From: Neoarius graeffei
Taxonomy: Eukaryota > Chordata > Actinopteri > Siluriformes > Ariidae
Reading direction: 5' to 3'
Length of the DNA: 64,000 bases
Assembly: GCF_027579695.1 (NCBI RefSeq)
Contig: NC_083586.1
Location: 5,700,001 to 5,764,000, forward strand
Part shown: positions 34,583 to 61,195 of the stretch, piece after piece
Numbering within the stretch: the first letter of the stretch is position 1
Layout of the letters: each line of letters starts with the position of its first letter
Notes under the pieces: generated by a model
Told to the model about the DNA's origin: nothing
Database searches by the model: none
The model's input: only the letters and a program-made list of their open reading frames with translations
Program-made: the position numbers and the translations under genes

Positions 34583-34655
34583 TTGAGGTATTTCACTCAC
34601 GTGACCAAGTCATGTGACGCTGCCATTTTGGACGGCACGGCTCGAATCAGTTTGA

Positions 34656-34841
34656 ATGCGAGGAAGGCGACAAACGAAAAACATAAAAGAAAAAGGAGCG
34701 AGATGCAGAAAACACCTTCACTATCCAGCGACGTAGGGCATTTACAGGGCGAGCAGAGGGAGAGGTATTTGCAAAAATTGAGGTTAGCAGGCTTGGAGAA
34801 CGACGTTTACCTGCTTCCACCAGGATTGTTCACTGACAGCT
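34656..34841 (+). pseudogene. Partner-protein first exon of element D, truncated
   Basis: It starts MNARKATNEKHKRKRSEMQ, continues HLQGEQRERYLQKLRLAGL and ENDVYLLPPGLFTD, and then hits a stop where about 170 bp of the exon are deleted. It is nearly identical to the complete exon in element E (50,613-51,011). The basic stretch at the start could be a nuclear localisation signal. Confidence 0.65.
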
Positions 34842-34980
34842 AAGATTTGTTCACATTTTCATTTACTTTCGGTCCTCAGGATAAACAAAATATTATTAAA
34901 TGTCATTGAAATAACTTCTTAGTCTGTTGAGACATGGCCCGTTATAAGTTTTTCCTTTACTGTATTTACTAGTTTACTGA

Positions 34981-35871
34981 GCGCGCTCCGGGGCGGGCTG
35001 GCTGGCTGGCTAGTGCTCCGGGGCGGGCTGGCTAGCGCTTCGGAGCCGGCTGGCTGGCTAGCGCTCCGGGGCCAGCTGGCTGGCTAGCTAGCACTCCGGA
35101 GTCGGCTGGCTGGCTCACTAGCGCTCCGGGGCCGGCGGGCTGGCTAGCTAGCGCTCCGGGGCCGGCGGGCTGGCTAGCGCTCCGGGGCCGGCTGGCTGGC
35201 TAGCTAGCGCTCCGGGGCCGGCTGGCTAGCTAGCTAGCGCTCCGGGGCCGGCTGGCTAGCTAGCTAGCGCTCCGGGGCCGGCTGGCTAGCTAGCTAGCGC
35301 TCAGGGGCCGGCTGGCTAGCGCTCCGGGGCGGGCTGGCTGGCTGGCTAGCGCTCCGGGGCGGGCTGGCTGGCTGGCTAGCGCTCCGGGGCCGGCTGGCTG
35401 GCTAGCTAGCGCTCCGGGGCCGGCTGGCTAGCTAGCTAGCGCTCCGGGGCCGGCTGGCTAGCTAGCTAGCGCTCAGGGGCCGGCTGGCTAGCGCTCCGGG
35501 GCGGGCTGGCTGGCTGGCTAGCGCTCCGGGGCGGGCTGGCTGGCTGGCTAGCGCTCCGGGGCCGGCTGGCTGGCTAGCTAGCGCTCCGGGGCCGGCTGGC
35601 TAGCTAGCTAGCGCTCCGGGGCGGGCTGGCTAGCGCTCCGGGGTGGGCTGGCTGGCTGGCTAGTGCTCCGGGGCCGGCTGGCTAGCTAGCTAGCGCTCCG
35701 GGGCCGGCTGGCTGGCTAGCTAGCGCTCCGGGGCGGGCTGGCGGGCTAGCTAGCGCTCCGGGGCCAGCTGGCGCTCCGGGGCCGGCTGGCTAGCTAGCGC
35801 TCCGGGGCGGGCTGGCGGGCCGGCTGGCTAGCGCTCCGGGGCTGGCTGGCTAGCGCTCCAGGGCCGGCTGG
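34981..35871. repeat. GC-rich minisatellite, units about 22-36 bp
   Basis: The unit is built from GCTCCGGGGC, (C/G)GGCTGGCTGGCTA and GCTAGCTAGC modules that vary in number, giving over 25 imperfect units. Blocks of several units are themselves repeated (for example 35,330-35,480 and 35,500-35,620), pointing to unequal exchange. It is bounded by TTTACTGA on the left and CTCAGTAAA on the right. Confidence 0.9.
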
Positions 35872-36063
35872 CTCAGTAAACTAGTAAATCCAGTAAAGGA
35901 AAAACTTGAGACTGAAAGGTTTTAACAGTCATCCAAATGACTGAACGTAAACATTGCTACAGTAACATACCAGCTACTGTTGTTGACATTAGCTAGCTTG
36001 CCATCCAAAATGGCGGACACCGGGGCGTCACGTGACCCTGTGATGTCAGGTGAAATACCTCAG

Positions 36064-36191
36064 TATGTGTACAACTGCCTCTTCACCACACTGAACCTCA
36101 TAAACAGTTTAGAATTTAAATGATTTTTTTTCTTTTTTGATCTCAACACAAATAAATGAATTACTTTGTAATTCAGTGACTGGAATTTGAA
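36064..36191 (-). mobile_element. Penelope-like 3' tail fragment
   Basis: On the - strand it matches 22,390-22,475: 'gaggttcagtgtggtgaaga', 'ggcagttgtacacat'. The rest of the same tail lies left of element D ('gacattgctggccta'). Confidence 0.6.
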
Positions 36192-36395
36192 TTGTTCTTC
36201 ATGGATGACATGACTATTACAACAAAGTCTGTTACTGAAGGAAGATGGATGCTGGAGGACATTGACAGACTGATGACATGGTCGAAGATGAAGTTTAAGC
36301 CATCCAAGTCTAGCAGCCTGGCTTTAAAGAAAGACAAAGTTCAGGACCGCTTCAGATTCAGGATAGATGGTGAAGACATTTCAACGGTTGCTCCA
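36192..36395 (+). pseudogene. Non-LTR reverse transcriptase fragment with FMDD box
   Basis: The frame reads FFMDDMTITTKSVTEGRWML, EDIDRLMTWSKMKFKPSKS and LALKKDKVQDRFRFRIDGE. This has the catalytic xxDD box followed by the thumb-proximal 'W...F.P.KS..L...K' pattern of retroelement polymerases. Methionine before DD is unusual for LINEs, which mostly use YADD or FADD. Only about 68 residues remain. Clade not identified. Confidence 0.5.
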
Positions 36396-36550
36396 GTGCT
36401 TTTCAATGCTGAACCTCATCATTGTTACTCTCGACCATCTGTTTGCCGCCATACCACTGAGGCCATGCCCCTGTCCTGGTGCCAAATGTTTAAGCGCGAG
36501 CTTTGCTTTTCTCGAGGCCCAGGCAACAAGCGCTAAATACTCCCTTTGTG

Positions 36551-36623
36551 GTTTCTGTAGTGTAGTGGATATCATGTTTGGCTAACATGTGAAAGGTTCC
36601 TGGTTTGAAACGAAGCAGTGCTT
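36551..36623 (+). pseudogene. tRNA-Val (anticodon AAC) pseudogene
   Basis: It starts 'gtttctgtagtgtagtggat', then the anticodon arm '...catgtttggctaacatgtg' and 'aaaggttcctggtttgaaac'. This aligns with tRNA-Val-AAC over its whole length, but the T-arm and acceptor 3' side ('gaagcagtg') no longer pair. Downstream, 'ttggactgagacgtgaataa' is shared with the tRNA-Val copy at 42,437, so tRNA and spacer moved together. Confidence 0.7.
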
Positions 36624-36800
36624 GGCCTCTTGGACTGAGACGTGAATAAATGTTGAGCTGTCATCTCTGCTTAGCCTGTGACTTTTGGAAAAACCTTCAG
36701 GTATTTTCTGCTCTGTCGTGGTTATCCCTTTTCCCTAACAAGCGAACAGAGGCTCCTCAGAAACCTGGCAGGTCCGTGCTTTGCTTTCATAAATGTCCAG

Positions 36801-38662
36801 GGCCCTGTACTACGAAGCGGGTTTTCTGGCTTACCAGGGTAACTTCGAGAGTAACTTGATCACGTGCAGCGTAACTTCCCGATTAACCCATACTACGAAA
36901 GTTGGCTATGTTCAAACTGAGGTATGCTGCCATGGCAATTTACACTGCGTCTCAAACCTGCTCGTCTCAGGTTATGTTCTTGTTTAACCCGAGGTTTCTG
37001 ATTAACCACACCCTTTTTAAACACCACCTCTCCACCGACATTTCCTCTAGAGACAATGCCAGCGTACCTGGATGACCCGTGCGATATCGGAGCGCAGATT
37101 AGAGATGGGATTTATGGCTCTTTGATGGGATCCGCATCTTTGTGATCCGTTCTTTGAAAAGAGCCGTTCAAAAAACTGGCTCATTTGGCTCTTTTTAAAT
37201 ATTTATTCAGTTTTAAGAAACAGCGTCTAAAGAAGCCAGATCTCTCTGCTTAGACAGTGACATCAATATTTCTGGACATACCTTTTATATAAAGCAACCT
37301 AGACTTACATTATTGTAACCCCTAAACGCTCATAAATAACCATTAAAAAACAATGAGGGCTTCAATGAATGTCCATGCAGAACAGCTTTTCTGTAAAAAA
37401 AAAGAACCCACTCAAGAACATAGTTATCAAGAACACAAGAATATTTTATAGAAAAACACTTGTTTTACAAAAATATTTAAGTCTGAGATACAAAATAGAT
37501 ACAACTACAATAAATATAACACAAGAACTAGTTATCACACAAGAACATTTTAATAGAAAAAAACAAACTTTCTATATTAAAAATATTGAAATTGTAACAA
37601 AAATAGATACAACTAAACAGTCAGATAAATAGATAAAGTTATAACAAGAACACAAGATTATTTTAATAGGAAAAAACAAACTTAATGCAAAAAATATATT
37701 ATTATTAGAAAAATAGATACAACTAGACAAACAGATAAATAAATAAAATATACAAAAATAGAACAAACAATGACGATAGAATAAATTAAATGAAGTCCGT
37801 GCAAAGTAGGTTTCCCACAATATTATCATTAATATCACACAACAACATTATAAACTATATACAAAACAATTTGAACTATTAGGCAAACAGATAAAACTTG
37901 AATAAATAAAAGGCAAATGAATGCTTGCTTGCACGCGCGCACACACACACCATTATGAATGATGTTTTTATATTTCATTTTCACCTGTTGCCAGGTGTGT
38001 TTGGCACTGCTGTTGCCTCTGAAATGTTCACAGGACATACACCAACTTAGTCAAAGGGACTGAACAATCAGTCATCCTAATTCATGTGACTCTGTGCACA
38101 TATCAGCTTAAGCAGGCTACTCCATGAATTTACCATACCAAATTTTATTCAGGATTTTTTGGACATTAAACAAGCTATATATGACTGGGGCCACGTCGAA
38201 GGACCATTTTCTGTGACTTGTGATTGATCATGAAGCTTTCTCTCATCCTATACTTCTGTTCTGGAACATGTAGAAGGGAGAATGTACTTACGCATTTACC
38301 CGATCGGCAATTCGTTGCCAACATGCTTGCCGCTCCTTATTGGCAGCCGCTGTGTTAGATTTTGCTCTTAATGTTGTTTTGAACTCCTTGTAGCTTTGCA
38401 TTATGACAGCGCATTCTTCCTCCATGAAGTACGGCGACCGTGCCATTGTGAACAGTGGTGATTTGCACTGATAACCTCCCCTTTAACGTGAACGCGCATT
38501 AACCCTGATTAGGTTAACACAGGTTCAACAAATCAACTTCATAACTGGCGTCATAGTACCGTTTAACCCCAAACAAGATAACCAGGTTTTGTCAACCCCG
38601 GTTTAGTGGGGGAACCCTGGGTTACTTCTGGGTAGGTTGACCTCCGTTCGTAGTACAGGGCC
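36801..38662. mobile_element. PIF-Harbinger transposon with SANT-protein exon, CAG target duplication
   Basis: The inverted ends are GGCCCTGTACTACGAAGCGG and '...gttcgtagtacagggcc', flanked by CAG (36,798-36,800 and 38,663-38,665). Harbingers carry two genes, a DDE transposase and a SANT/Myb-like partner. Here a SANT first exon survives on the - strand at 38,446-38,292. A transposase start may survive on the + strand near 37,055 (MPAYLDDPCDIGAQIRDG). At 37,105 'agagatgggatttatggctc' resembles the end of a hAT that replaced the middle. AT-rich imperfect tandem repeats (about 37,400-37,760) with 'atagatacaact' follow. Confidence 0.8.
38292..38446 (-). pseudogene. SANT/Myb-like first exon of the Harbinger partner protein
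   Basis: The 51-residue exon starts MARSPYFMEEECAVIMQSYK and continues EFKTTLRAKSNTAAANKER, QACWQRIADRVN, ending at the donor C|gtaagt. The layout 'F-x2-EE...I...Y..FK..L..KSNT...NK.R...W..I...VN' is that of the Myb/SANT-like DNA-binding partner of fish Harbingers, which helps bring the transposase to DNA and into the nucleus. No later exon is seen. The exon is intact. Confidence 0.7.
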
Positions 38663-39046
38663 CAGGTGTCTTAAAATCGGGTACTCTCGAAACAGCCAGA
38701 AAGACCGACCCTTGTCAGGACTAGACAACTTTTGATAGATTAGCAGTTGTCATGTTCTCCTCCATGCAGATGGTCATCAAGACAAAACCTGGTTGGAACG
38801 GTTTCCCTGCCTTTCTGGTTTTCCACCAAGGGAGATAACAGCTGCTGTAAAAAACAAACAAACAAACAAACATTCTCTACATTTCCACTGGCTGTGGAAG
38901 CATGGAAATTGCAATTCATCATAAGGAGGTGGTGTTCTCAAATACAACATCCTTCCTCATTTATGGAGTGGTGTCAAGTCAACAGGGCTGCACACAGCAT
39001 CAGAACTCAGCAAAATGGCACTGACTTTCGATCATGTATCAACAAG
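38663..39046. other. Unassigned tRNA-cluster-associated spacer
   Basis: This is the continuation of the sequence left of the Harbinger (36,640-36,800). No gene seen. A short (AAAC)n run lies at about 38,850. Confidence 0.4.
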
Positions 39047-39280
39047 TAGGGGTGGGTATTGCCAACAACCTCGCGATACGATACACATCACGATACAGGG
39101 GTCATGATATGATACATATTGCGATACATGTGCATCCCAATACATGGTCTTCAAGGCGATATGTATCCCGATATTTCACATTACTTAACATACATTTTTA
39201 AGAAAACAGACATATGTATACCCAAATGTTATTTTTTATTTTGCTGTAGAGAAACAGTTACACTGTAGTGCATGTAAAAT

Positions 39281-39640
39281 ATGACCTTAACAAGGCTGTA
39301 GTGCAGAAATAAAGCTGCCTTTGAAAAAAGTAAACTTAAAACATGGCCTTAACAAGGCTGTAGTGCAAAAAAAGATGGCTTTGATAAAAGTAAACTTAAC
39401 ACATGGCCTTAACAAGGCTGTAGTGGGAAAAAAAAAGCTTTGATAAAAGTAAACTTAAAACATGGCCTTATCAAGGCTGTAGTGCAAAAAACAGATGGCT
39501 TTGATAAAAGTAAACTTAAAACATGGCCTTAATAACAAGGCTGTAGTGCGAAAATAAAGCTGCCTTTAAAAATACTTAACTTAAAACATGGCCTTAACAG
39601 GAACAAGGCTGTAGTGCAAAAAAGATTGGCTTTGACAATA
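39281..39640. repeat. About 60-bp tandem repeat, six units
   Basis: Each unit contains 'catggccttaacaaggctgt', then 'agtgc', an A-run, 'gctttgataaaagtaaactt'. Units differ by a few bases and small indels. The array lies between the hAT transposase stop and the element's 3' terminal repeats. Confidence 0.9.
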
Positions 39641-39666
39641 CCAAATGACAGACAATAAATCCTAAC

Positions 39667-40250
39667 CTACTTCTTTTGGTACATTTGCAGGTTTTTGTTC
39701 AGAAACAAAAGCTGGTCTACATGGGCTGGTTTGATAACACTTCTCTCAGCTGTAACTATGTCACCAGTGGTGGAGAATATTCTCTCTGCTGCCATGCTTG
39801 TTCCTGGCACACACAGAGTGTTTCTAGCCAGATGGGATAGCAGTGGAAACGTATCTTCATGTTTTCTCCACCAAGTTAGTGGGTCAGCTGAAAGCTCTAA
39901 TGATTCAGTGGCTCTGTATGCTTTTACCTCGCTCATTGCCTGTGCAATGGGAGTGGGTTGACTAGCCTGCTGTGACTTTGGTGAGAATGTCTTTCCAAAT
40001 AAATCAGAAAGAGCACAACTCTTTTTATAGGGTGGAGGTTGTGTTGGAACTTCAAGCTCTCCTTCAACAGCAGGCTCATGGTCATCCTCAGTAGCCTTCC
40101 TCTGAAATACAAAATAAAAACATTTGTTACTAAGAAGTGGTCATAGATTTACAAGTTGTTTAGGTCTGCATTACTTTTGTTAATATTGTATTAGATTGGA
40201 GTGTTAGTAGTAGTGGTAGTAGTACTCAATCATTTTAAAAGCAGCAGTAA

Positions 40251-40290
<40 letters not shown>

Positions 40291-41739
40291 TAAAAAAAAA
40301 AATACTAATCTCTGATAATTCAGCTGCCACTCCTCCCAATGCTGCAAAGATGTCATCTCTTTCCCCCTCTGTAAGGAAGGGCAGGGCTTTGAAACAGGGG
40401 TCCAGAGCTGAAGCCATCTGAAGAAAGGATTTGTTGGCATACCTCTTCCCCAGGTCTTGTGCCAGTGCGTTTTTGATGTCTTTTATTATCCCAGAGTCAT
40501 TAGTTTGCTCCTTGGTGCTCTGGCACAGCTGTGCCTGTAAAGGGGCAATGATGGACACTGTGGGTGTTTTTTCTTCTGACATCACAAGAGTTGCAACTTT
40601 CAGAGGCCGCAGGGTTTTAGCAACATCTTCAGCGTTGGAGAGGTCTGCTTCTGATAAAGTCCACAGCTCCTTGGCATTCTTGCGCACCTCAGAGGAGAGC
40701 AATGTGGCACAGATAGCGGGCTGCTGCTCGAGGAAGCGCTCCAGCATATCGAATGCACTGTTCCCCCTGGTAGACACGTCAGTCATGAGTTTGTGCTGGG
40801 GTAGGTTGAGGAGCTTTTGTTTTTCCTGTAGGACCTGGCTGGCCAGCGCACTCTTTCTGAAAAATGCCACAATCTGTCAAATCTTTCCCAACAGCCTCCC
40901 AACTGCAGCTGTCTTAAGGGCACGTTGGGCTGCCAAATTCAAGGTGTGCGCGAAGCATCACACATGTAGCAGTTTGGCATGCTCTGCAGCAATAGTCATA
41001 TTTGAGGCGTTGTCCGTCACCAACACTGGTTCTTTTTCTGTAATCCACCACTCCTCAAAGACCTCGAGCAGCAACTCCCCCAGATTCTGTCCGCTGTGGC
41101 TGCAGAACAACACTCTGGTTTGCAGAACATACGAAACCAGTTCCCAATTTAAAGAAATGTAGTGGCATGTCAGCGTTATATAGGACTGTGTTGCCCTCGA
41201 AGTCCACCCGTCACATGCAATGGCTACTCTGCTTGCTTCTGAAATGGAATTGATTACGTGTTGTTTTACCTCAGCATACAAGCGAGGCACAGCGGTTTCT
41301 ATTATGAAGCGACGAGTCGGTATAGTGTAGCGTGGTTCACATTTCCTCAATTAGTTCTCGGAAGCCTTAGTTTTCAACTGAGCTGTATGGACGCAAGTCT
41401 TTGCATATGTAGGATAATAGTGCCGCAGTGATTTTTTTTGAGCCTTTGGTGATGTTGGGGGAAATTTCGTCTGAAACCCCACCGTCAGATTTGCTTGTGT
41501 CGTTGTGCTACCACTAGCATTCTTTACTTGCGAAATGCTAGCGTGATGTCGGGTCATGTGGAGGTGCAGATTTGTAGTATTGCCACAGTACTTAACTTTC
41601 ATTCGGCAGTGTTTGCATACTGCGTGTGTCATGTCCAGGTCCGCCTTTACCTGTTGCTTGGTAAATCCAAAATGCTCCCAAATCCGTACCTTGAATTTGG
41701 CTGGGGCGAAAATATTTTCTCTTCACCGTCTTCGTCCAT
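39667..41739 (-). pseudogene. hAT (ZBED-like) transposase, few lesions, one putative intron
   Basis: From 41,739 (MDEDGEEKIF) the protein reads, after one frame change, a BED zinc finger (VRIWEHFGF, AVCKHCRMKVKYCGNTTNL, HLHMTRHH), the N-terminal catalytic block (VAIACDGWTSRATQSYITL with the first D; PVLVTDNASNMTIAA with the second), an insertion domain (LLSSEVRKNAKELW), TGERDDIFAALGG-like helix, and the C-terminal hAT dimerisation region (DPLTWWRKHEDTFPLLSHLA, VPGTSMAAERIFSTTGDIVT). A stop lies near 41,351. A probable intron (about 40,310-40,105, acceptor tttcag|AGG) holds an (AAT)n microsatellite. Two or three more breaks interrupt it. Related host proteins are ZBED1/ZBED4, but the target duplication shows a transposon. 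Confidence 0.85.
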
Positions 41740-42294
41740 GTTGTGTGTTGTGTGTGTGTTCACTTCTTCTACTGTTAGCAGCGCTGCCGCTTACGGCGCT
41801 ACTGCCTTGTGTAGTCAAAATGCGCATTGCATAACAAGGAGCAGTTGTCAGATGCAGTTTTCAGAAACTTGATAAACTAATTGTTTGTTGCACGTGAAAT
41901 ATCGATACTGACGCCTCCGTATCGATGCGTGTATCGTGAAGAGGCCCGCAACGATGCATCCCTGTATCGATATTTTGAACACACCCCTATCAACAAGTAT
42001 TTGCTTTAGACCAGCCAACATGTAGACACTTGCTTGTTAAATCTAAAACAGTGACTGTACAGTTTTCCATTTGTGGAAAAAGTAGCATGTCGCCAACGAA
42101 AGAAAATCACACTCGTGTACTTCACTTTTTTTCACAGGACAAGTTGGCCCAGGTGAAATCCGAAATCATTCAGCCCTGTGAACAGCTACTGGAAAGCAGA
42201 AGCCCTCAGTCACATCCAAACAAGGTCGTGACAGGCAACTGATTCCTTCCCAGTGCCTTTCATTGTAGCAATGAGATATTGGTATGAAAGGACA

Positions 42295-42366
42295 TGCCTT
42301 GGCTAGGAATCAAACCCAGGTCACCCACTTGGAAAGCAGCTATGCTAACCACAATCCAGCCAACAC
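42295..42366 (-). pseudogene. tRNA-Gly (anticodon TCC) pseudogene
   Basis: The - strand 72 nt read 'gtgttggctggattgtggtt', 'agcatagctgctttccaagt', 'gggtgacctgggtttgattc', 'ctagccaagg', matching tRNA-Gly-UCC over the full length. Box A and box B are recognisable. Mismatches in the acceptor stem, the D-loop and the anticodon stem make function doubtful. Confidence 0.7.
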
Positions 42367-42436
42367 CTACACTGGGGATAAGTGCTTAAGTGGGATTGCT
42401 TCTAGTGTTGTGGCCCAGATAACAGCAAACTGGCAT

Positions 42437-42510
42437 GTTTGCTGTAGTGTTGTGGTTATCACATTTGTCTCACATGTGAAAGGATCCAAAGACCAGGCCA
42501 AAACAGTGCT
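42437..42510 (+). pseudogene. tRNA-Val (anticodon CAC) pseudogene
   Basis: 'gtttgctgtagtgttgtggt', 'tatcacatttgtctcacatg', 'tgaaaggatcc' follow tRNA-Val-CAC. The T-arm is lost ('aaagaccaggcc'). The spacer that follows is the same as after the tRNA-Val copy at 36,551. Confidence 0.65.
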
Positions 42511-42954
42511 TGGTTTCTTGGACTGAGATGTGAATAAATGTTGAGCTGCCATTGCTGCTCTGTCTGTGACTTTTGGAACAACCGAGAACCTGAAAGACCT
42601 TCAGGTATTTTTTCCCTTGTCCCCAAAAACCAATCTTCTTACCGAACTGGGAATCATATTAAACCAATCATGTTGTTGCACTAATGCAAGCACACAGTTG
42701 TTTTGTATCCCAGTGGCCACTGAAAGTGCAGTCATGCTATGTTTCTCTCCTCATTCATTTAAAGAGGGACTTGATTTTATATTCAATCTATTTTCTCTCC
42801 CCAACTCCATCTGCTGCCATCTGTTGGTTACACAATGCTCTACAATTACCAGGAGAGATGGAAACAGTTTCAAAGAACTCCCTGTTTCTCCAGTGAACAA
42901 AAATATAAATGCAACACCGAAGATTTAGAAACATTTTATGAACCTATGGTTTAA

Positions 42955-43120
42955 TCTAGTGTTGTAGAACTCGAGACTGATCTCAAGACCACTTTTTGAA
43001 GGTTTCGGTCATGTCTTGGAATTGACCACATTTTTACTCAATCTTGTCTTGGTCTCAGACATGGAGAACTCGAGATTTTATCTCAAGACCGGTCAAGACC
43101 ACAACTCTGGGGATTTCACT
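42955..43120. repeat. Dispersed fish repeat rich in 'ctcgag/ctcaagacc'
   Basis: 'agaactcgagactgatctca' and 'agaactcgagattttatctc' are repeated, with further 'ggtctcag' words. I recognise the wording from fish repeats but cannot place ends or family. Confidence 0.4.
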
Positions 43121-45437: not shown

Positions 45438-45445
45438 GTAGAAAC

Positions 45446-46973: not shown

Positions 46974-46981
46974 GTAGAAAC

Positions 46982-46983
46982 AC

Positions 46984-47016
<33 letters not shown>

Positions 47017-47242
47017 GAACTAAGTAGGGAAATACTAGGAGAAATGCTAAAGATTGATGAATAATGTAAATAATAATGGGTGTGTTAGACAGCGCTGTGT
47101 TCTGCGTGGCTCTTGACTCCCATCGTGTAGCCAAGTTTAGGAAGTGCACGTTCCCTTTGTTGATTAAAGTCACAGCGTTTCAGCAATAAATCTGTAGGAA
47201 ATAGCTGGGGCGGGCTTATCAGTGCTAGGCTTGTTGCCTGTG
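46982..47242. other. (AAT)n microsatellite and unassigned sequence
   Basis: An (ATA)n run of about ten units lies at 46,985-47,013. A similar run follows the SINE at 47,641-47,668. Confidence 0.6.
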
Positions 47243-47255
47243 AGAAAATGTATTT

Positions 47256-47628
47256 CTCATCTCATTATCTCTAGCCGCTTTATCCTTCTACAGGGTTGCA
47301 GGCAAGCTGGAGCCTATCCCAGCTGACTACGGGCGAAAGGCGGGGTACACCCTGGACAAGTCGCCAGGTCATCACAGGGCTGACACATAGACACAGACAA
47401 CCACTCACACTCACATTCACACCTACGGTCAATTTAGAGTCACCAGTTAACCTAACCTGCATGTCTTTGGACTGTGGGGGAAACCGGAGCACCCGGAGGA
47501 AACCCACGCGGACACGGGGAGAACATGCAAACTCCACACAGAAAGGCCCTCGCCGACCCTGGGGCTCGAACCCAGGACCTTCTTGCTGTGAGGCGACAGC
47601 GCTAACCACTACACCACCGTGCCGCCCC
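47256..47628 (-). mobile_element. tRNA-derived SINE, full length, 13-bp target duplication
   Basis: AGAAAATGTATTT flanks the 373-bp copy exactly (47,243-47,255 and 47,629-47,641). The - strand head 'ggggcggcacggtggtgtag' with box A, and box B 'ggttcgagcccc', are well kept. The tail is '...ggctagagataatgagatga'. This is the least altered copy in the window and therefore probably the youngest. Confidence 0.93.
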
Positions 47629-47817
47629 AGAAAATGTATTTAATAATAATAATAATAATAATAATAATAGATGTTGTACTGGATGGCTGTTGGTTTCCCT
47701 CATGTGGCCACATTTGGAAACTTTACTTGCTGCATTTTCAGTCTATAGACCCCTTCGCATGTTTGTAAACAAACCGACCGTTGCCAGGATGCGCGCGCAG
47801 CCTGGACTCAGAAACAA

Positions 47818-47910
47818 TGGCACTGCCCATAGACCGGCATTATGAGCTGTCAGATTATGCAAAACAATTGTCGTTACAAGATCGAGAATGCTACATAAAT
47901 AAAAGTTAAC
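47818..47910 (+). pseudogene. Partner-protein first-exon remnant of element C
   Basis: The short frame MALPIDRHYELSDYAKQLSL-QDRECYINK resembles the 'GEQRERYLQKLRLAGL' segment of the D/E/F/G exons in position and pattern (Q-x-R-E-x-Y-x-x-K-L). A stop follows at once, although the DNA beyond ('gtggacatcgcctacc') may continue the family pattern in another frame. Confidence 0.45.
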
Positions 47911-48696
47911 TCTAACAAGTGGACATCGCCTACCGGAAATGTATTTAATTAAAGATTGGACAGACGATGTTAATAAGTTTTCCTCTGATACCTGAAGGCA
48001 GTCATACTATTTACAAAAAATGTCAAACTAAAAAAAAAAAAAAAACTATTTACAAAAGTAGCCTGCCATCAACATTCTGCAGCCGGTTTCACTAAAGTAG
48101 TTTAGACTGGTCTATGGGTTAAGATTGGTCTTAAGTTTCTTTATAGATCAGTCTAATGCAAGTAAGACAGTTTCACAAAAGTTAAGACTAATTTTTTAAG
48201 TCTAATTTTAGGCTTAAAAAGTAAGACACCCTCCCCCCAGTCTAATATGGGTCTAAGGGCTATATCACCATGGTAATAACTGAAATAGTGTGTGAATCAG
48301 TGTGTGTGTGTGTGTGTGTGTGTTGTTGTTGTTGTTATTATTATTATTATAGTGTTGTTATTGTGTTCTTGTTATTATTACTATTGTTGTTATTATTATT
48401 ATTACTATTGTTGCTATTATTACTGGACATACTTTCTTAAATGAATAAAATTGAATTAAAAAAAAAACTGTCAAGCCATAAGTGCCATCAATGTCAATAA
48501 CTACAAGAAAGCTTGAAAATGTTAAGGCAGTGAAGTGCAAGTATGTAATACACAAATTTAGGCTATTATAATCTAACTATAAAGTATTCAATAAAGAACA
48601 AACAGTGTAATGCCAGCTTATTCATTTTATTACTTATAAATAATATAAATATATCAATTCATTTATGCATATAATTACATCACCACTCATCACTTA

Positions 48697-48730
<34 letters not shown>

Positions 48731-48737
48731 ACTACTA

Positions 48738-48849
48738 CTACATCACTCCTCCATCTGCGCGAGTCTCTTCAATTTAAGTTGCAGTTGCTCCAAAAGGAAA
48801 GACTGCAACTTAAATTGAAGAGACTCACGCAGATGGAGGAGTGATGTAG
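48738..48849. repeat. Hairpin with 48-bp arms inside the Myb-like gene
   Basis: Arms 48,738-48,785 and 48,802-48,849 are reverse complements with one mismatch, separated by 16 nt. The shared core is 'gagtctcttcaatttaagtt'. It lies over the end of the Myb-like coding region, which it duplicates in inverted orientation. Confidence 0.93.
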
Positions 48850-49203
48850 ATAATAATGGCGACTCGCCTCCATAGATCTCTATCACCATTTCGGTGGTGA
48901 CTTTTAGTTTCTTTGCTTTCCCTCCTCCCGTTGGGGGTCCCGTTTTCCGCTTGTATATTTCCTTTTTTGCCTCTGGCACCATATTTTTAAACCTCTTCTG
49001 CACAGCTGACACGTCTCGTACCGCAGCGGGGTTAACGCTGTTCACCGCATCGGTGATTTTTTTTTCTACACCTCATGTTTCTTTTTGTTGGTACACTCCT
49101 CATTGAATTTCCCCAACAAAACCCCTTTGTAGGAATTAAATTCTTCAAGAATGGCTAAATTCTCTGAGTGCGTGAACGGCACTGACCGGTTGCTGTCCGC
49201 CAT
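48743..49203 (-). pseudogene. Harbinger Myb/SANT-like DNA-binding protein, one frameshift
   Basis: Starting at 49,203: MADSNRSVPFTHSENLAILE, EFNSYKGVLLGKFNEECTN, KKKHEV, then a one-base frame change in an A-run near 49,070, then AVNSVNPAAVRDVSAVQKRF, KNMVPEAKKEIYKRKTGPPT, GGGKAKKLKVTTEMVIEIYG. This is the trihelix/Myb-like N-terminal domain plus linker of the Harbinger accessory protein, which binds the element's ends and partners the transposase. The C-terminal 40 residues (LRESLQFKLQS ... LQLKLKRLAQMEE) come from a 48-bp-arm DNA hairpin and form a predicted helix. Confidence 0.75.
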
Positions 49204-49945
49204 TTTTTTTTTGTTTTGAAAAGAGTCTTAAATTACCAACAATCCTTTGCGGCATAGTACAACTTAAGATAGTCAGTCTTAACTGCTTTGTGCAACAGTT
49301 TTTGTTAGACGTCTATGCTAAGTCCGACTATACCCTCTGTCTAAGTTATAGTCATAGTCTATCTTAGTGAAACCGGCTCCTGGTTACAGCAAGACTACAA
49401 CTTGATTAACAATGGGACATTCATATTAATTTTGTTTTAATCAAATTATGCCAGTGATGTGATGGCAATGTGGCTTTAGCTGCAACAGCAAATACCAACA
49501 CTAAACAGCAATTAGCAGGAGGTAATGGCATGAAAGGAATGATAGTGTAAAGAGTGCAGCTAAGAGAAATCAGAGCTGCGTAAAAAGCAAGAGGCAGAGA
49601 CCAGAAATGAAACTGAACGGGGCGGGAGCTAGGTTAGAGCAGTCAACGTAAGTTGGCATTTAGAGTGAGGGCACACAATTTTACTTTTCCATCCTTGCTT
49701 TAAAATTGTGATTTTCGGCATACACAAATAATGATGGCACAAAATCTGGACTGCTTGAGTCAAGCGAGACCTCTCCTACAAACAAAATTGCATGCAAAGC
49801 CAAGTTAACATGCTAACAATATTCATTACATTCTGTAACTATGACCCAGCTAATCAGACAAACGTTACCAAAGTATTTTGCTACATCCATAAACAAAGAC
49901 TAGAAAGAATAAAAAAGAAAGATTTAATAAATAGCCTGATCTTAC

Positions 49946-50225
49946 CTGTGATGAAGTGGGCGCTGCAAACCTGCGCATTTTTGATAGTGCTTTCATCCCA
50001 GTCTACACGTTTGATGGCTTGTAGCCATAGACGTCGGTGATTTTTTTGGAATGGGTGAGATCCTGCTGGAATTCTGTACATTTTAACCCCATCACTGCTA
50101 CGATTTTGACACCCGACAACACAACAACTAGGCATTTCTTCCAAATATTTCTTCTCGTCTCTACCGTCTGAATCTTTTTTGGGTCCAGGTTGCGCGCGCA
50201 ATTTCCTCTTACGTATGAATGACAT
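49946..50225 (-). pseudogene. THAP first exon of element C
   Basis: The frame is open from 50,225, but the THAP domain starts at the Met at 50,135: MPSCCVVGCQNRSSDGVKMY, RIPAGSHPFQKNHRRLWLQA, IKRVDWDESTIKNAQVCSAH, FITG, ending at donor ACAG|gtaaga. Both zinc half-sites (C-x4-C, C-x2-H), the RIP motif and the W pair are in place. The upstream 30 residues (MSFIRKRKLRAQPGPKKDSD) are basic and may be extra N-terminus or 5' UTR. The exon is undamaged. Confidence 0.75.
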
Positions 50226-50243
50226 TTACTGCGAAGGGGTCTA

Positions 50244-50543
50244 TAAATCAGTTAAAATAATGAAATGACCCAATAATTGTAATGGAGGATATGGATGCAT
50301 GCCGCTCCCATCCCATTCATCCATGAGAGATGTGAAGAGCGTGGGTTTATTTGTCACCATTGTGTATTAATGCCTGCCTTCAACCCACCGTACTGCATGG
50401 CAGTTTGATCAACACTGGAGTGTGAATTGAGGAATATTGTAGACATGTAATGCATTAAGTAGTTAGATCAAAAATAATCAAAATAAATAATCACAAAACT
50501 AAATAAATACATCGATCTAGTCAAAACAGAGTGCAGATGTATA
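50244..50543. other. Unassigned AT-rich sequence between elements C and E
   Basis: Nothing recognised. Confidence 0.5.
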
Positions 50544-50612
50544 TTGAGGTATTTCACTCACGTGACCAAGTCATGTGATGCTGCCATTTTGGACGGCACG
50601 GCTTGAATCAGT

Positions 50613-51011
50613 TTGAATGCGAGGAAGGCGACAAACGAAAAACATAAAAGAAAAAGGAGCGAGATGCAGAAAACACCTTCACTATCCAGCGACGTAGGGC
50701 ATTTACAGGGCGAGCAGAGGGAGAGGTATTTGCAAAAATTGAGGTTAGCAGGCTTAGAGAACGACGTTTACCTGCTTCCACCAGGATTGTTCACTGACGT
50801 ACGGAAGTACACGAAGCCCTCGTCTTTACCTGACCTCGGCCCACATGATCTGTATACCTATGTCGTTAAAAACCCATCGCCATACACAGGTATTGATCTG
50901 AAAGCGTATACGAGTTTGGATGCCTACAAATATTTTGTGTCAGGCTGGGTAACATGCCTACATCAGTGGGTCATCCCTGGAGCCGGTGGTCGCCATCTGA
51001 TTACAGCTAAG
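50613..51011 (+). pseudogene. Partner-protein first exon of element E, intact
   Basis: The 133-residue exon starts MNARKATNEKHKRKRSEMQK and continues [98 protein letters not shown], ending at donor AAG|gtttgt. The '[17 protein letters not shown]' block is what I associate with SWIM/YqaJ-type proteins of fish DNA transposons. The later SWIM and nuclease exons are not here. It has no stop or frame break and is the reference copy for D, F and G. The basic N-terminus suggests nuclear targeting. Confidence 0.65.
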
Positions 51012-51333
51012 GTTTGTTCACATTTTCATTTACTTTCGGTCCTCAGGATAAACAAAATGTTATTAAATGGCATTGAAATAACTTCTTAGTCTGTTGAGAC
51101 ATGGCCCGTTATAAATTTGCTGTTACCAGGCAATGACCAAGAACTGTATTATTAGGGTCGGTGTAGTTGTAGCAGTGTATTAGCAACTAGCTGTTAGCAC
51201 TAGCTAATGTCAACAACATCGTAGCTAGTATGTTACTGTAGCAATATTTACGTTCAGTCATTTGGATGACTGTTAAAACCTTTCAGTCTCAAGTTTTTCC
51301 TTTACTGGATTTACTAGTTTACTGAGCTAGCGC

Positions 51334-51720
51334 GCTCGGCCGAGCCGGGAGCCATCGCGCGCTCTCCGGCCGAGCCGGGAGCCATCGCGCGCTCTCCGGC
51401 CGAGCCGGGAGCCATCGCGCGCTCTCCGGCCGAGCCGGGAGCCATCGCGCGCTCGCCGGCCGAGCCGGGAGCCATCGCGCGCTCGCCGGCCGAGCCGGGA
51501 GCCATCGCGCGCTCGCCGGCCGAGCCGGGAGCCATCGCGCGCTCGCCGGCCGAGCCGGGAGCCATCGCGCGCTCGCCGGCCGAGCCGGGAGCCATCGCGC
51601 GCTCTCCGGCCGAGCCGGGAGCCATCGCGCGCTCGGCGGCCGAGCCGGGAGCCATCGCGCGCTCGGCGGCCGAGCCGGGAGCCATCGCGCGCTCGGCGGC
51701 CGAGCCGGGAGCCATCGCGC
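51334..51720. repeat. 30-bp minisatellite, 12 full units plus one partial
   Basis: The unit has CCGAGCCGGGAGCCATCGCG and GCTCNCCGG, with three variants (tctcc, tcgcc, tcggc) grouped in blocks. Because the unit is 30 bp, all frames without a stop stay open, and the - strand reads as repeats of MAPGSAGERA. It is the same unit as in element G, where it appears on the other strand because that element is inverted. Confidence 0.97.
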
Positions 51721-51917
51721 GCTCGCTCAGTAAACTAGTAAATCCAGTAAAGGAAAAACTTGAGACTGAAAGGTTTTAACAGTCATCCAAATGACTGAAC
51801 GTAAATATTGCTACAGTAACATACTAGCTACTGTTGTTGACATTAGCTAGCTTGCCGTCCAAAATGGTGGACACCGGGGCGTCACGTGACCCTGTGATGT
51901 CAGGTGAAATACCTCAA

Positions 51918-51988
51918 TACATTTACTGTAACCCAGATTGGGAAGATGATGGGCCTTAAACCCCCATTTACTGTGAGCATAGTGTTTA
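51918..51988. other. Short spacer between elements E and F
   Basis: Seventy-one bases of unremarkable sequence ('taacccagattgggaagatg'). Confidence 0.5.
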
Positions 51989-52115
51989 TAGACCCTTTTC
52001 ATGTGACGTCACGACAAACGCGGCCGCCATTTTGGACATGTACTACCAGGAGTTTACCACAGCCAGCACTGAGGAACAGCAGCAAAAAGTTTTTACTTTC
52101 AGCAAGACTTCCATC

Positions 52116-52279
52116 ATGCCACTATATTGTTGTGCACCTGGATGTAGTAACCATCAACAAACAAGGCAAGGTTTATCATTTTATCGGATCCCGACAGAGA
52201 AGACGGATAGCGGCCATTAACAGGAAAGATTGGCAGCCCTCGGCATACCAACGCTTGTGTAGTGACCACTTTGTTGTAG
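52116..52279 (+). pseudogene. THAP first exon of element F, with a frame change
   Basis: The first part reads MPLYCCAPGCSNHQQTRQGL, SFYRIPTEKT. After a small deletion near 52,200 the second part continues in another frame: RIAAINRKDWQPSAYQRLCS, DHFVVG, then donor gtag|gtaaga. Together these have THAP's C-x4-C, RIP, W and C-x2-H landmarks. Element B keeps the bases deleted here ('gatgctgacggacggagaag'). Non-functional as it stands. Confidence 0.7.
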
Positions 52280-52534
52280 GTAAGATGAATAAAATTAGCC
52301 AGAAAAGGCATTACATTGCTGTTAACATTCTGTGGTGGCGAGTGTGTAACCAAATAGGTTAAAATAACCCATTGTAACCTCTTTGTTCTTCTGTAGTAGC
52401 TATTGTTGACTAGCTAATGTCAACAACATAGTAGCTAGTATGTTACTGTAGCAATGTTTACGTTCAGTCATTTGGATGACTGTTAAAACCTTTCAGTCTC
52501 AAGTTTTTCCTTTACTGTATTTACTAGTTTACTG

Positions 52535-52744
52535 TAATTATGATCCGGCAGCTATTTACACCAGATCCAGTGTAAATAGCTGCCGGAGCCGACGTCCCAG
52601 CTTGCCCGAGCGCGCTAGCTCCCAGCCTACCCGAGCATGCTAGCTCCCAGCCTGCCCGAGTGCGCTAGCTCCGGCAAGCTCGGACGTCGGCTCCGGCAGC
52701 TATTTACACTGGATCCGGTGTAAATAGCTGCCGGATCATAATTA
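52535..52744. repeat. Palindromic core of element F with a three-unit repeat
   Basis: Two hairpins, 52,545-52,586 and 52,693-52,734, each have 17-bp arms (CCGGCAGCTATTTACAC). They are also inverted relative to each other, so the whole core folds back. Between them are about three copies of a 25-bp unit (CCCAGCCTGCCCGAG then cgcgctagct), which shares the GCTAGC and CGCG words of the long minisatellites in D, E and G. Confidence 0.9.
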
Positions 52745-53060
52745 CAGTAAACTAGTAAATACAGTAAAGGAAAAACTTGAGACTGAAAGGTTTTAACAGT
52801 CATCCAAATGACTGAACGTAAACATTGCTACAGTAACATACCAGCTACTATGTTGTTGACATTAGCTAGTGCTAACAGCTAGCTGCTAGTACACTGCTAC
52901 AACACAGACACCGACTCTAATAATACAGTTCTTGGTCACTGCCTGGTAACAGCAAATTTATAACGGGCCATGTCTCAACAGACTAAGAAGTTATTTCAAT
53001 GACATTTAATAACATTTTGTTTATCCTGAGGACCGAAAGTAAATGAAAATGTGAACAAAC

Positions 53061-53456
53061 CTTAGCTGTAATAAGATGGCGACCACCAGCTCCAGGGACG
53101 ACCCGCTGACGTAGGCATGTTACCCAGCCTGACACAAAATATTTGTAGGCATCCAAACTCTTATACGCTTTCAGATCAATACCTGTGTATGGCGATGGGT
53201 TTTTAACGAAATAGGTATACAGATCATGTGGGCCGAAGTCAGGTAAAGACAAGGGCTTAGTGTACTTCCGTATGTCAGTGAACAATCCTGGTGGAAGCAG
53301 GTAAACGTCGTTCTCTAAGCCTGCTAACCTCAATTTTTGCAAATACCTCTCCCTCTGCTCGCCCTGTAAATGCCCTACGTCACTGGATAGTGAAGGTGTT
53401 TTCTGCATCTCGCTCCTTTTTCTTTTAATGTTTTTCATTTGTCGCCTTCCTCGCAT
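53061..53456 (-). pseudogene. Partner-protein first exon of element F, intact frame
   Basis: The exon starts MRGRRQMKNIKRKRSEMQKT (a small change from the MNARKATNEKHKRKRSEMQ of E), then [78 protein letters not shown], with donor AAG|gtttgt at 53,061/53,060. It is open throughout. Its close similarity to E and G shows recent common ancestry despite different terminal repeats. Confidence 0.65.
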
Positions 53457-53538
53457 TCAAACTGATTCGAGCCGAAGTCCACTACATGTCCAAAATGGCG
53501 GTCGCGTTTACGAAGGTCACGTGACTGAAAAGGGTCTA

Positions 53539-54056
53539 TAGAGAAGAAAAGGCCTGGGAGTAGACAGTGCTGAGTGTGTTCATTAGAGCGCTGGCTTTAT
53601 TTTGACATATGGGTTTGATGTTCTGCATGTTGGTTTATTTTGCCCAAATGGTGAAATGAATAAGATTTCCCTGTAAATGAAACTTGGAGTTTAAGAATGA
53701 GGTTAGTGTTGGTGAAAATGCAGCGAATTTAGAACTTTATAGATTCTGTATTAAATGTTGCATTTGTGAGAGCTGATAAAGTAAGGGCCGATATTTGTTA
53801 TTGCATTCCTTTCTGTGCTGCTGCTGGTAACTTAGATAAATTAGTGGCATGTTCATTGATGTTTATATAATTATTTTGTCTATTTTAAAATTATTTTATC
53901 TTAACCGTCCCAGGCGGGATGACACCACTTGGAAATTGAAATTGGCATGTTATGATTGCTGTCTGACAACGTCACATGTGCAGGGTTGAATAGCCGAGTG
54001 CAATCCCTTGTATCAGGTCATCTGTGTCAGGGACACCCCCTCCCCCATCTTGGCTA
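53539..54056. other. Unassigned sequence between elements F and G
   Basis: Nothing recognised in 518 bases. Confidence 0.5.
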
Positions 54057-54260
54057 TTGAGGTATTTCACCTGACGTCACAGGGTCACGTGACGCCCCGG
54101 TGTCCACCATTTTGGACGGCAAGCTAGCTAATGTCAACAACATAGTAGCTGGTATGTTACTGTAGCAATATTTACGTTCAGTCATTTGGATGACTGTTAA
54201 AACCTTTCAGTCTCAAGTTTTTCCTTTACTGGATTTACTAGTTTACTGAGCTAGCGCGCG

Positions 54261-54710
54261 ATGGCTCCGGGCTCGGCCGGAGAGCGCGCGATGGCTCCGG
54301 GCTCGGCCGGAGAGCGCGCGATGGCTCCGGGCTCGGCCGGAGAGCGCGCGATGGCTCCGGGCTCGGCCGGAGAGCGCGCGATGGCTCCGGGCTCGGCCGG
54401 AGAGCGCGCGATGGCTCCGGGCTCGGCCGGAGAGCGCGCGATGGCTCCGGGCTCGGCCGGAGAGCGCGCGATGGCTCCCGGCTCGGCCGGAGAGCGCGCG
54501 ATGGCTCCCGGCTCGGCCGGAGAGCGCGCGATGGCTCCGGGCTCGGCCGGAGAGCGCGCGATGGCTCCGGGCTCGGCCGGAGAGCGCGCGATGGCTCCGG
54601 GCTCGGCCGGAGAGCGCGCGATGGCTCCGGGCTCGGCCGGAGAGCGCGCGATGGCTCCGGGCTCGGCCGGAGAGCGCGCGATGGCTCCGGGCTCGGCCGG
54701 AGAGCGCGCG
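54261..54710. repeat. 30-bp minisatellite, 15 units
   Basis: Fifteen units of atggctccgggctcggccgg plus agagcgcgcg, exact except for a C-for-G variant in two adjacent units (near 54,479 and 54,509). Such uniformity means recent expansion or homogenisation. On the + strand it reads as MAPGSAGERA repeats, and that frame runs into the foldback arm (…MAQ, stop). Confidence 0.97.
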
Positions 54711-55019
54711 ATGGCTCAGTAAACTAGTAAATCCAGTAAAGGAAAAACTTGAGACTGAAAGGTTTTAACAGTCATCCAAATGACTGAACGTAAACATTGC
54801 TACAGTAACATACCAGCTACTATGTTGTTGACATTAGTTAGTGCTAACAGCTAGTTGCTAATACACTGCTACAACTACACCGACCCTAATAATACAGTTC
54901 TTGGTCATTGCCTGGTAACAGCAAATTTATAACGGGCCATGTCTCAACAGACTAAGAAGTTATTTCAATAACATTTTGTTTATCCTGAGGCCCGAAAGTA
55001 AATGAAAATGTGAACAAAC

Positions 55020-55414
55020 CTTAGCTGTAATCAGATGAAGACCACCGGCTCCAGGGACGACCCGCTGATGTAGGCATGTTACCCAGCCTGACACAAAATA
55101 TTTGTAGGCATCCAAACTCTTATACGCTTTCAGATCAATACCTGTGTATGGCTATGGGTTTTTAACGACATAGGTATACAGATCATGTGGGCCGAAGTCA
55201 GGTAAAGACGAGGGCTTCGTGTACTTCCGTACGTCAGTGAACAATCCTGGTGGAAGCAGGTAAACGTCGTTCTCTAAGCCTGCTAACCTCAATTTTTGCA
55301 AATACCTCTCCCTCTGCTCGCCCTGTAAATGCCCTACGTCGCTGGATAGTGAAGGTGTTTTCTGCATCTCGCTCCTTTTTCTTTTATGTTTTTCGTTTGT
55401 CGCCTTCCTCGCAT
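55020..55414 (-). pseudogene. Partner-protein first exon of element G, one stop
   Basis: It starts MNARKATNEKHKRKRSEMQ at 55,414 and follows the E exon almost residue for residue to the donor (AAG|gtttgt at 55,020/55,019). A TCG-to-TAG change after KNP (near 55,150) truncates the frame. Otherwise it is intact. Confidence 0.65.
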
Positions 55415-55487
55415 TCAAACTGATTCGAGCCGTGCCGTCCAAAATGGCAGCGTCACATGACTTGGTCACGTGAGTGAAATACCTCAA

Positions 55488-57663: not shown

Positions 57664-57993
<330 letters not shown>

Positions 57994-58722: not shown

Positions 58723-59151
<429 letters not shown>

Positions 59152-59679: not shown

Positions 59680-60204
<525 letters not shown>

Positions 60205-60550: not shown

Positions 60551-61129
60551 TTACTTCTTTTTGGGGGCCGCCTTTTTCGCCTTGGCCGTTTTGGGCTTTA
60601 CGGCTTTGGGCTTGGCAGTTTTTGTCTTCTTCGCGCTCTTGGCAGCCTTTTTGGGGGTCGACGGTTTTTTCGCCTTCTTCGGCCTTTTAGTGGCTTTCCT
60701 GGCGGCGGGGGGCTTCTTCGCCTTCTTAGGAGACTTCCTGGCGGCGGGTTTCTTGGCTACCTTCTTAGCGGCGGTTGGCTTTTTGGCGGCCGCCTTTCTG
60801 GCTTTGGGCGCGGCTTTCTTGTCTTCGGTCTGCGTCTTGTTCAGCTTGAAAGAGCCAGACGCACCGGTCCCTTTGGTCTGCACCAGGACGCTTTTCCTCA
60901 CAAGGTTCCTGACGGCGATGTTGACGCGGGAGTTGTTCTTCTCCACATCGTATCCGGCGGCCTGTAAAGCTTTCTTCAAGGCGGAGAGGGACACGCCGCT
61001 CCTCTCCTGCGACGCAGAAACCGCTTTGATGATGAGCTCGCCGACGCTCGGGCCTGATTTCTTGCTCTTTGAAGCTGCTTTCTTCTTGGGCGCTTTGGCC
61101 GGCGCGGCGGCGGGAGCGACTTCTGCCAT
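60551..61129 (-). CDS. Linker histone H1
   Basis: 192 residues from the Met at 61,129 ([17 protein letters not shown]). An upstream in-frame Met at 61,210 would add 27 residues that lie over the TATA box, so I reject it. The winged-helix globular domain spans about residues 27-98 ([52 protein letters not shown]). The rest is a Lys/Ala/Pro-rich tail with cyclin-dependent kinase sites (KSPKK, STPKK). The segment [20 protein letters not shown] differs from the more usual RVKLALKSLVSKGTLVQTKG, a subtype trait. H1 binds linker DNA at the nucleosome dyad. Promoter signals are an AAACACA box and a TTTTAAG TATA-like word. Confidence 0.97.
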
Positions 61130-61195
61130 CTGTCTCGGAGCTCCGGAGCGGAAGCGAGTGAAACGCTGTGTGGGAAACGGAGGCCGGGGGCGGGG

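Follow-up and report, generated by a model that had tools for sequence, protein, structure and literature searches.

A dispersed minisatellite seed, probably expanding in place, on non-autonomous ISL2EU-like transposon copies of Neoarius graeffei

Short DNA transposons in the genome of Neoarius graeffei carry GC-rich tandem arrays between the arms of an internal inverted repeat. We consider it probable (roughly 0.72) that these arrays go back to a dispersed minisatellite seed which expands in place, by slippage or unequal exchange, on non-autonomous cut-and-paste copies of the ISL2EU group (PHIS/Harbinger-like). The foldback arms themselves are probably lineage markers, that is passengers rather than the motor of expansion.

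The window, i.e. the whole stretch of DNA analysed (64,000 nt; NC_083586.1, positions 5,700,001-5,764,000, assembly GCF_027579695.1), contains elements D to G, four short copies derived from an ISL2EU-like DNA transposon and themselves non-autonomous (Table 1). In each of them an internal inverted repeat flanks a GC-rich core, and both the inverted arms and the differing cores were found where the original prediction had placed them. The eight arms match one reference arm at 97-100% identity and are 124 bp long, except for the left arm of D. Arms of up to about 125 bp had been described for all four elements; in D, the left arm is reduced to its inner 36 bp. Similarly, the junction TTTACTGAG...CTCAGTAAA, which was thought to be conserved throughout, is present in D, E and G, while F reads TTTACTG/TAATTATGATC instead.

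Table 1. Elements D to G and their parts, in coordinates relative to the window.
Feature	Position	Strand	Remarks
Element D, class III	34584..36062	+	target AT 34582-34583, right copy GT; order: YqaJ-like second-gene-side end, exon-1 fragment, short left arm, core, right arm, other end
D left arm, inner 36 bp only	34946..34981	+	
D core, GC-rich array, 890 bp	34982..35871	+	units GCTCCGGGGC plus 4-base steps; unit spacing mostly 30, 22, 26 bp
D right arm	35872..35993	-	
Element E, class Ia	50545..51916	+	AT at 50543-50544 and 51917-51918
E left arm	51203..51326	+	
E core, 399 bp	51327..51725	+	13 x 30 bp
E right arm	51726..51847	-	
Element F	51990..53537	+	AT at 51988-51989 and 53538-53539; other ends (AGACCCTTTTC), THAP exon-1 remnant, cassette, second-gene exon 1 (minus strand)
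F left arm	52413..52534	+	
F core, 210 bp	52535..52744	+	class II palindromic shell around three class Ib 25-bp units (3.1 x 25 bp)
F right arm	52745..52866	-	
Element G, class Ia, inverted vs E	54058..55486	-	AT at 54056-54057 and 55487-55488
G left arm	54127..54250	+	
G core, 464 bp	54251..54714	+	15.5 x 30 bp; unit family common with E
G right arm	54715..54837	-	

In the copies analysed, all of them internally deleted, the two ends are 72-76% identical over about 57-67 bp in inverted orientation, and the target duplication is the dinucleotide AT. As inverted ends combined with an AT duplication indicate a DNA transposon, the elements do not qualify as an SVA-like retrotransposon mobilised by LINE-1. 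Neither are they foldback elements of the FB/Galileo/Tetris kind, in which long terminal inverted repeats contain the tandem repeats; here the long inverted repeat sits inside the element, with the array between its two arms. One paralogous empty site (L032, compared with L018/L019/L025/L027) is consistent with T/AT/A and inconsistent with TA, and our initial reading of a TA target duplication was thus ruled out. Another candidate empty site, L046 for the second element of L049, was rejected because L046 lacks the element together with its flanks. We also withdrew an apparent in-situ core swap: L018/L019, whose class Ia core measures 39 bp, and L027, whose core is of class II, have both flanks in common and at first suggested that a core had been replaced within one insertion. 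The common flank is a repeat (a 26-base stretch of it has 7,034+7,122 exact copies) and L025 occupies the same target in the opposite orientation, which is more simply explained by independent insertions into a target hotspot.

The second gene is represented by exon 1 only, which had no Pfam match up to E=1 and which we take to resemble the N-termini of fish YqaJ proteins. An exon-1 remnant of the other gene (L058:3559-3741) matches the THAP domain (PF05485, E=4.8e-13), and this exon motif is also found in element F, interrupted by stops. An AT target duplication and a THAP-domain protein accompanied by a second gene are likewise features of ISL2EU (PMC4482050, PMC9179366). The bases flanking the duplication are mostly T on the left and A on the right in our copies; the ISL2EU pattern given in PMC4482050 is A/AT/T.

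Exact arm tips number about 9,000 in the genome and fall into three main junction types. Exact matches on the forward and reverse strands were counted over the whole genome, each with a control pattern. The 17-mer GCTAATGTCAACAACAT occurs 2,193+2,095 times in 2.34 Gb, against 0+0 for the reversed pattern, which excludes chance. The tips ACTG/TAATTATGATC (2,153+2,122), ACTG/AGCTAG (1,590+1,555) and ACTG/AGC[ACG] (809+800) all had controls of 0+0; ACTG/AG followed by a base other than C gave 46+41 (control 21+11) and ACTG/[CG] gave 23+29 (control 1+2). At least one transposon end or exon was present at each of the 60 fetched arm loci. The arms were thus seen only with these transposons, but the cores between them are far from constant, and it was the combination of exclusive arms with constant cores that had been named as speaking against the original prediction.

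While the arms stayed alike, the 78 cores ranged from 32 to 2,692 bp in length, 45 of them being shorter than 300 bp. Their units, usually 16-44 bp long but 34/79 bp in class II, are of minisatellite size (tandem units of about 10-100 bp). Long arrays can be assembled wrongly. The shortest forms of classes I and III measure 32-54 bp, and in both classes such short seeds grade into arrays, the class III seed already containing two partial unit copies. Outside the core, the element bodies diverge by about 2-3% within a class while the cores differ widely; the core class is largely passed on with the body. Relatedness of the cores was assessed by shuffle tests (300 shuffles per pair, uncorrected p). 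The pairs Ia-Ib25, Ia-Ib29, Ib25-Ib29 and Ib25-Ic32 and the pair of class III seeds were found related (p=0.003). Likeness among classes I, II and III was mostly non-significant in these pairwise tests, with a few uncorrected p values of 0.03-0.04 (class III vs I, 0.03-0.39; class II unit vs I and III, 0.03-0.35; class II shell vs everything else, 0.06-0.73). The notion of one ancestral repeat that merely diverged therefore holds within classes (Ia/Ib, and class III with its single founder), but kinship between I, II and III was not demonstrated by shuffle tests.

New arrays do arise repeatedly, as had been proposed. The 12 class III elements seen together with their flanks, D and 11 others, have two deletion joints in common and hence a single founder, and yet 28 class III arrays have 25 different commonest units. 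Among 561 units, 168 of the 208 unit types are confined to one array, and the mean within-array unit distance is 0.163, as against 0.259 (lowest 0.243) in 50 shuffles among arrays. The expectation of many different tandem arrays between the same arms was therefore borne out, in class III by arrays that are largely private to single insertions. Core length in class III ranges from 48 to 2,692 bp (33 cores), and in pairs whose bodies diverge by just 0.34-0.51% the cores measure 54, 110 and 190 bp, with four junction bases included. Unit length equals 2 mod 4 in 388 of the 561 units (mainly 18, 22, 26, 30, 34 and 38 bp) and 0 mod 4 in 137, only 36 being odd; this 4-base stepping fits tetranucleotide slippage within a larger repeat.

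Length variation between individuals had also been anticipated. Within the one assembly covered, duplicated copies of one insertion served as a stand-in for individuals, and array length did vary between them. The cores of L090 and L091 measure 1,012 and 1,236 bp with 802/802 flanking bases identical, and these two could be haplotypes assembled side by side. L046 and L049 differ by one 34-bp unit (3 mismatches in 1,316), L051 and L053 have cores of 219 and 249 bp (99.4% identity over 2,670 bp), and L042 and L049 have cores of 42 and 99 bp and, in a second, one-armed element, differ by two 34-bp units. Three of the eight comparisons revealed no length change: L054/L056 (99.94% identity over 1,786 bp), L040/L048 (99.7% identity) and L084/L085 (536/536 fetched bases identical, the stretch by which this pair is judged a duplicate). 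As L090/L091 and L084/L085 were chosen for their look-alike cores, the eight comparisons are not a random sample.

One may suppose instead that most array change accompanies transposition: the gap left by excision would be recopied from another copy, and re-annealing of strands among repeats would add, remove or swap units. On one hand, this suits a cut-and-paste group with an AT target duplication, and the swapped ends of F and E on one interior, the chimeric nature of F and the internal deletions are the traces expected of template switching. On the other hand, duplicates of one insertion differ in length, although they have presumably stayed in place ever since they were duplicated. We thus regard jumps as an unlikely main route, though length change during transposition may be an extra source of array variation.

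Still less probable, in our view, is the idea that the foldback itself is the cause, with long arms extruding a hairpin and a new array being founded when the hairpin tip is cut or undergoes slippage in replication. This would agree with the position of the three main core classes exactly at the arm tip, with the strongly conserved junctions and with cores that are themselves inverted arrays (e.g. L036). However, arrays also vary at 11 one-armed loci, which form two groups (8 and 3 loci) with a shared deletion joint each and carry 2 to 21 copies of the unit motif. Three of the eight loci in the larger group are copies of one insertion, and these differ in 34-bp units, including single 34-bp steps between duplicates. 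Moreover, class III, with a stem of 36 bp, has the longest median core, 466 bp as compared to 219 bp in class Ia with full arms (Mann-Whitney p=0.004, the samples being drawn by different patterns). Because one-armed copies vary and the short-stemmed class has the longest median core, the proposal that the hairpin seeds the arrays is unsupported. In class II cores, also those of one-armed copies, half or more of the palindromic inner shell is retained, so a small hairpin could still form there.

That a fixed cassette captured unrelated tandem repeats from other parts of the genome seems very improbable: it would account for the lack of significant likeness among classes I, II and III in most pairwise tests and for the transplant-like look of F, but all 13 clusters found with class III units (C1 up to 53.1 Mb) adjoin a cassette tip, and classes I and III have short seeds grading into arrays. 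Least credible of all is an assembly artefact with GC-rich repeats collapsed or scrambled, since, although arrays of up to 2.7 kb at 78% GC (L100) are hard to assemble, the cores below 300 bp lie within any long read, L046/L049 and L051/L053 differ by one whole unit (34 and 30 bp), and L084 and L085 agree at every fetched base.

According to the reading we prefer, expansion of a dispersed seed in place, the internal inverted repeat would be derived from the element's own intron sequence, and its arms enclose the GC-rich seed. Transposition, presumably driven in trans by an ISL2EU transposase, would disperse seed and arms jointly. After insertion, the seed may grow or shrink in place via slippage, microhomology template switching or unequal exchange, and many insertions would in this way end with a private minisatellite. 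The core type would move with the element lineage, with occasional exchange among elements, as exemplified by F, where class Ib units sit inside a class II shell.

The cassette is best read as a DNA-transposon counterpart of the VNTR of primate SVA and LAVA elements. To our knowledge, the latter have no foldback arms. SVA and LAVA of apes are non-autonomous and have a central GC-rich array with units of 30-50 bp; they also resemble our copies in having ordered units at either end of the array, a composition specific to the lineage and DNA-level remodelling by microhomology, but they are retrotransposons moved by LINE-1 (PMC4432496). Our element is a DNA transposon of the cut-and-paste type, has inverted arms and comes with more than one seed family. 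Tetris (PMC4079207) and Galileo (PMC3573991) of Drosophila are likewise DNA transposons whose inverted repeats hold variable-number tandem repeats, and inter-copy exchange has been proposed for Galileo (PMC3573991). Their repeats (about 220 and 210 bp), however, lie inside terminal inverted repeats and not between internal arms (PMC4079207, PMC3573991), whereas our units are mostly 16-44 bp, and most class III insertions have a commonest unit of their own. Foldback4 of Drosophila is also palindromic, with a modular, variable centre that gains repeated modules, but the work on it dealt with ten sequences with terminal palindromes (PMC2955051), as opposed to thousands of exact arm tips and an internal palindrome here. 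For ISL2EU, the excerpts of PMC4482050 and PMC9179366 describe neither an internal palindrome nor a minisatellite core, the words "minisatellite" and "tandem" do not occur in PMC9179366, and a literature search through mostly non-subscription papers, chiefly at listing level and outside Repbase, returned no ISL2EU element with a minisatellite core.

A rather doubtful, though possible, extension is that the transposon acts as a self-dispersing minisatellite nursery, retaining, always at one internal position, a GC-rich seed that is hypermutable, because the element benefits from the array, perhaps through transposase binding, spacer upkeep or open chromatin. If so, thousands of independent, fast-evolving VNTR loci would have been planted, each from one of a few short seeds and with a datable insertion. 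Owing to their high GC content and variable length, the copies would be useful as length markers, and they are likely trouble spots for assembly. How minisatellites arise is difficult to follow, since few arrays have a known initial state. In these elements, thousands of arrays apparently began from a few short seeds, their insertions are datable by the flanking element, and the one-armed, two-armed and duplicated copies amount to a natural experiment with replicates, which bears on how arrays are born, what hairpin arms contribute and by which steps, 4-base and whole-unit, the arrays mutate.

The window lies on contig C18 (C18:5,700,001-5,764,000) of a probable fish genome of 2.34 Gb in 38 contigs. 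The original prediction described four transposon copies in it, D, E, F and G, each carrying a cassette of inverted-repeat arms around a GC-rich core; this anatomy holds overall, except that the left arm of D is only 36 bp long and that the arm/core junction of F reads TTTACTG followed by TAATTATGATC. D, E and G end in T, AT and then TGAGGTATTTCAC, and F in T, AT and then AGACCCTTTTC; E and G have opposite orientations and are separate insertions. F and E share an interior but differ in their transposon ends, apparently because two lineages of one element exchanged ends.

Features of the window
Feature	Position	Strand	Description
Element E	50545-51916
Element F	51990-53537
Additional element	23836-25058		F-type ends and THAP exon motif; cassette arms not found in it
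Other tandem array	39275-39635		60 bp x 5.8
Other tandem array	61935-62230		31 bp x 9.5
Presumed H4 histone gene	57682-57993	+	named from translation
Presumed H3 histone gene	58723-59133	-	named from translation
Presumed H2A histone gene	59680-60066	-	named from translation
Presumed H1 histone gene	60551-61210	-	named from translation

An arm 17-mer has 4,288 exact copies genome-wide, the first 100 listed being all on contig C1; all listed places as far as 36.63 Mb were taken, giving 60 loci (L numbers), 18 of them without an arm pair under the pairing rule used; with the 4 in the window, paired cassettes came to 46. Class III cores, the class of D, were sampled through 32 of 33 listed tip pairs (tips being arm/core junctions; unpaired tips were left out), and 11 of these 32 loci, picked for short cores, were also taken with flanks. 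The 78 cores classified fall into class Ia (n = 19; 30-bp units with CCATCGCG; 39-794 bp), Ib (n = 12; 25/29-bp units; 46-236 bp), Ic (n = 3; 32-151 bp), II (n = 11; 34/79-bp arrays and a palindromic shell; 191-2,309 bp) and III (n = 33; GCTCCGGGGC with 4-base steps; 48-2,692 bp; unit lengths 16-50 bp among the units counted). Exact tips number 3,145 (AGCTAG), 1,609 (AGC[ACG]) and 4,275 (TAATTATGATC) genome-wide; two further patterns gave few extra tips, and some class Ia cores (e.g. L010, L011) fall under AGC[ACG].

The arrays are private and young. Body divergence within classes averages 1.9-2.7% (44 elements), and two deletion joints are common to 12/12 class III elements having flanks, so that these 12 had one founder; their cores are unlike, even at 0.34% body divergence (190 vs 110 bp). 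Among 28 class III arrays with at least four units of 14-50 bp (excluding the duplicate L085), 208 unit types occur, 168 of which are restricted to one array, and there are 25 distinct commonest units; unit distance is 0.163 within arrays versus 0.235 between them, and 0.259 after shuffling. Privacy is strongest in class III, because class Ia arrays have their commonest units more widely in common. In the shortest class III cores (48-54 bp), two partial unit copies flank GCTAGCTAGC or a near form, and such a pair is a natural slippage seed. The original prediction of many new arrays between like arms was borne out.

Duplicates of the same insertion differ in core length in five of eight comparisons: 1,012 versus 1,236 bp in L090/L091 (flanks identical at 802/802 bases), one 34-bp unit in L046/L049 (3 mismatches in 1,316), two such units in L042/L049 and, in a second element of that pair, 42 versus 99 bp, and 219 versus 249 bp in L051/L053. 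No length difference was found in L054/L056, L040/L048 and L084/L085; a further 34-bp step in L042/L046 was left uncounted, being non-independent of L046/L049 and L042/L049. Gaps of 1-5 bp also distinguish duplicated copies. The class III unit GCTAGCGCTCCGGGGC occurs 3,169+2,736 times (control 0+0), and its first 100 listed places fall into 13 clusters, which reach as far as 53.1 Mb on C1; since all 13 adjoin a cassette tip, no capture of class III arrays from other places, or escape to them, was seen there.

It had also been proposed that the hairpin causes the seeding of arrays, which is not supported, as varied arrays occur in one-armed loci and class III has long cores despite a 36-bp stem. 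The second arm was deleted by one common joint in 8 loci and by another in 3, and because these groups carry unlike arrays, the foldback is probably dispensable. Forward/reverse counts of one unit motif are 2/2 (L016), 2/2 (L024), 15/1 (L026), 2/4 (L042), 1/4 (L046), 2/0 (L047), 1/3 (L049) and 4/2 (L064) in the first group, where L042, L046 and L049 are copies of a single insertion, and 1/7 (L020), 2/19 (L025) and 1/3 (L031) in the second. The median core is 466 bp in class III (stem 36 bp) versus 219 bp in Ia (full arms; p = 0.004), a weak comparison of samples drawn by different patterns.

The cassette carriers derive by deletion from an ISL2EU-like transposon. In L032, a paralogous target repeat lacking the insertion gives the AT duplication, an exon remnant matches the THAP domain at E=4.8e-13, and exon 1 of a second gene begins from the opposite transposon end; this exon has no Pfam match, and we take it to resemble YqaJ-associated proteins. 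At least one transposon end or exon is present in 60/60 sampled loci. According to PMC4482050, the marks of ISL2EU are AT duplications, a YqaJ gene and a THAP/DDE transposase. The arm sequence runs on into the second gene's intron, and L041, L052 and L058 contain the first 68 bp of one arm only (~90% alike). As these loci hold a single piece and no palindrome, we take the arms to be probably a doubled piece of that intron. In the three elements the 68-bp piece joins both introns; this form may be ancestral or may have arisen by an independent deletion. A TATA insertion hotspot for the transposon, occupied in both orientations (L018, L019, L025, L027, L032), lies in a repeat of which one 26-base stretch has 14,156 exact copies.

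Core class is largely inherited, because a tree built from 43 element bodies requires 9 changes of class, versus 22.0 in shuffles (minimum 4); Ib and Ic form no clusters of their own on it. Class III splits into two tree groups although its deletion joints are common, suggesting exchange from one element body to another. The middle of F matches class Ib exactly over 26 bp, its match to the other class II cores reaching just 13 bp, and its outer part has 28 bp in common with class II; judged by these matches, the F core is a chimera of a class Ib middle and a class II outer part.

The closest known parallel is the VNTR of SVA/LAVA (PMC4432496), and the nearest DNA transposons found were Tetris and Galileo; within a partial coverage of the literature, no published description of a seed-planting minisatellite transposon was found. 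We regard the phenomenon as real: a transposon plants a seed, and many of its copies then grow a minisatellite of their own.
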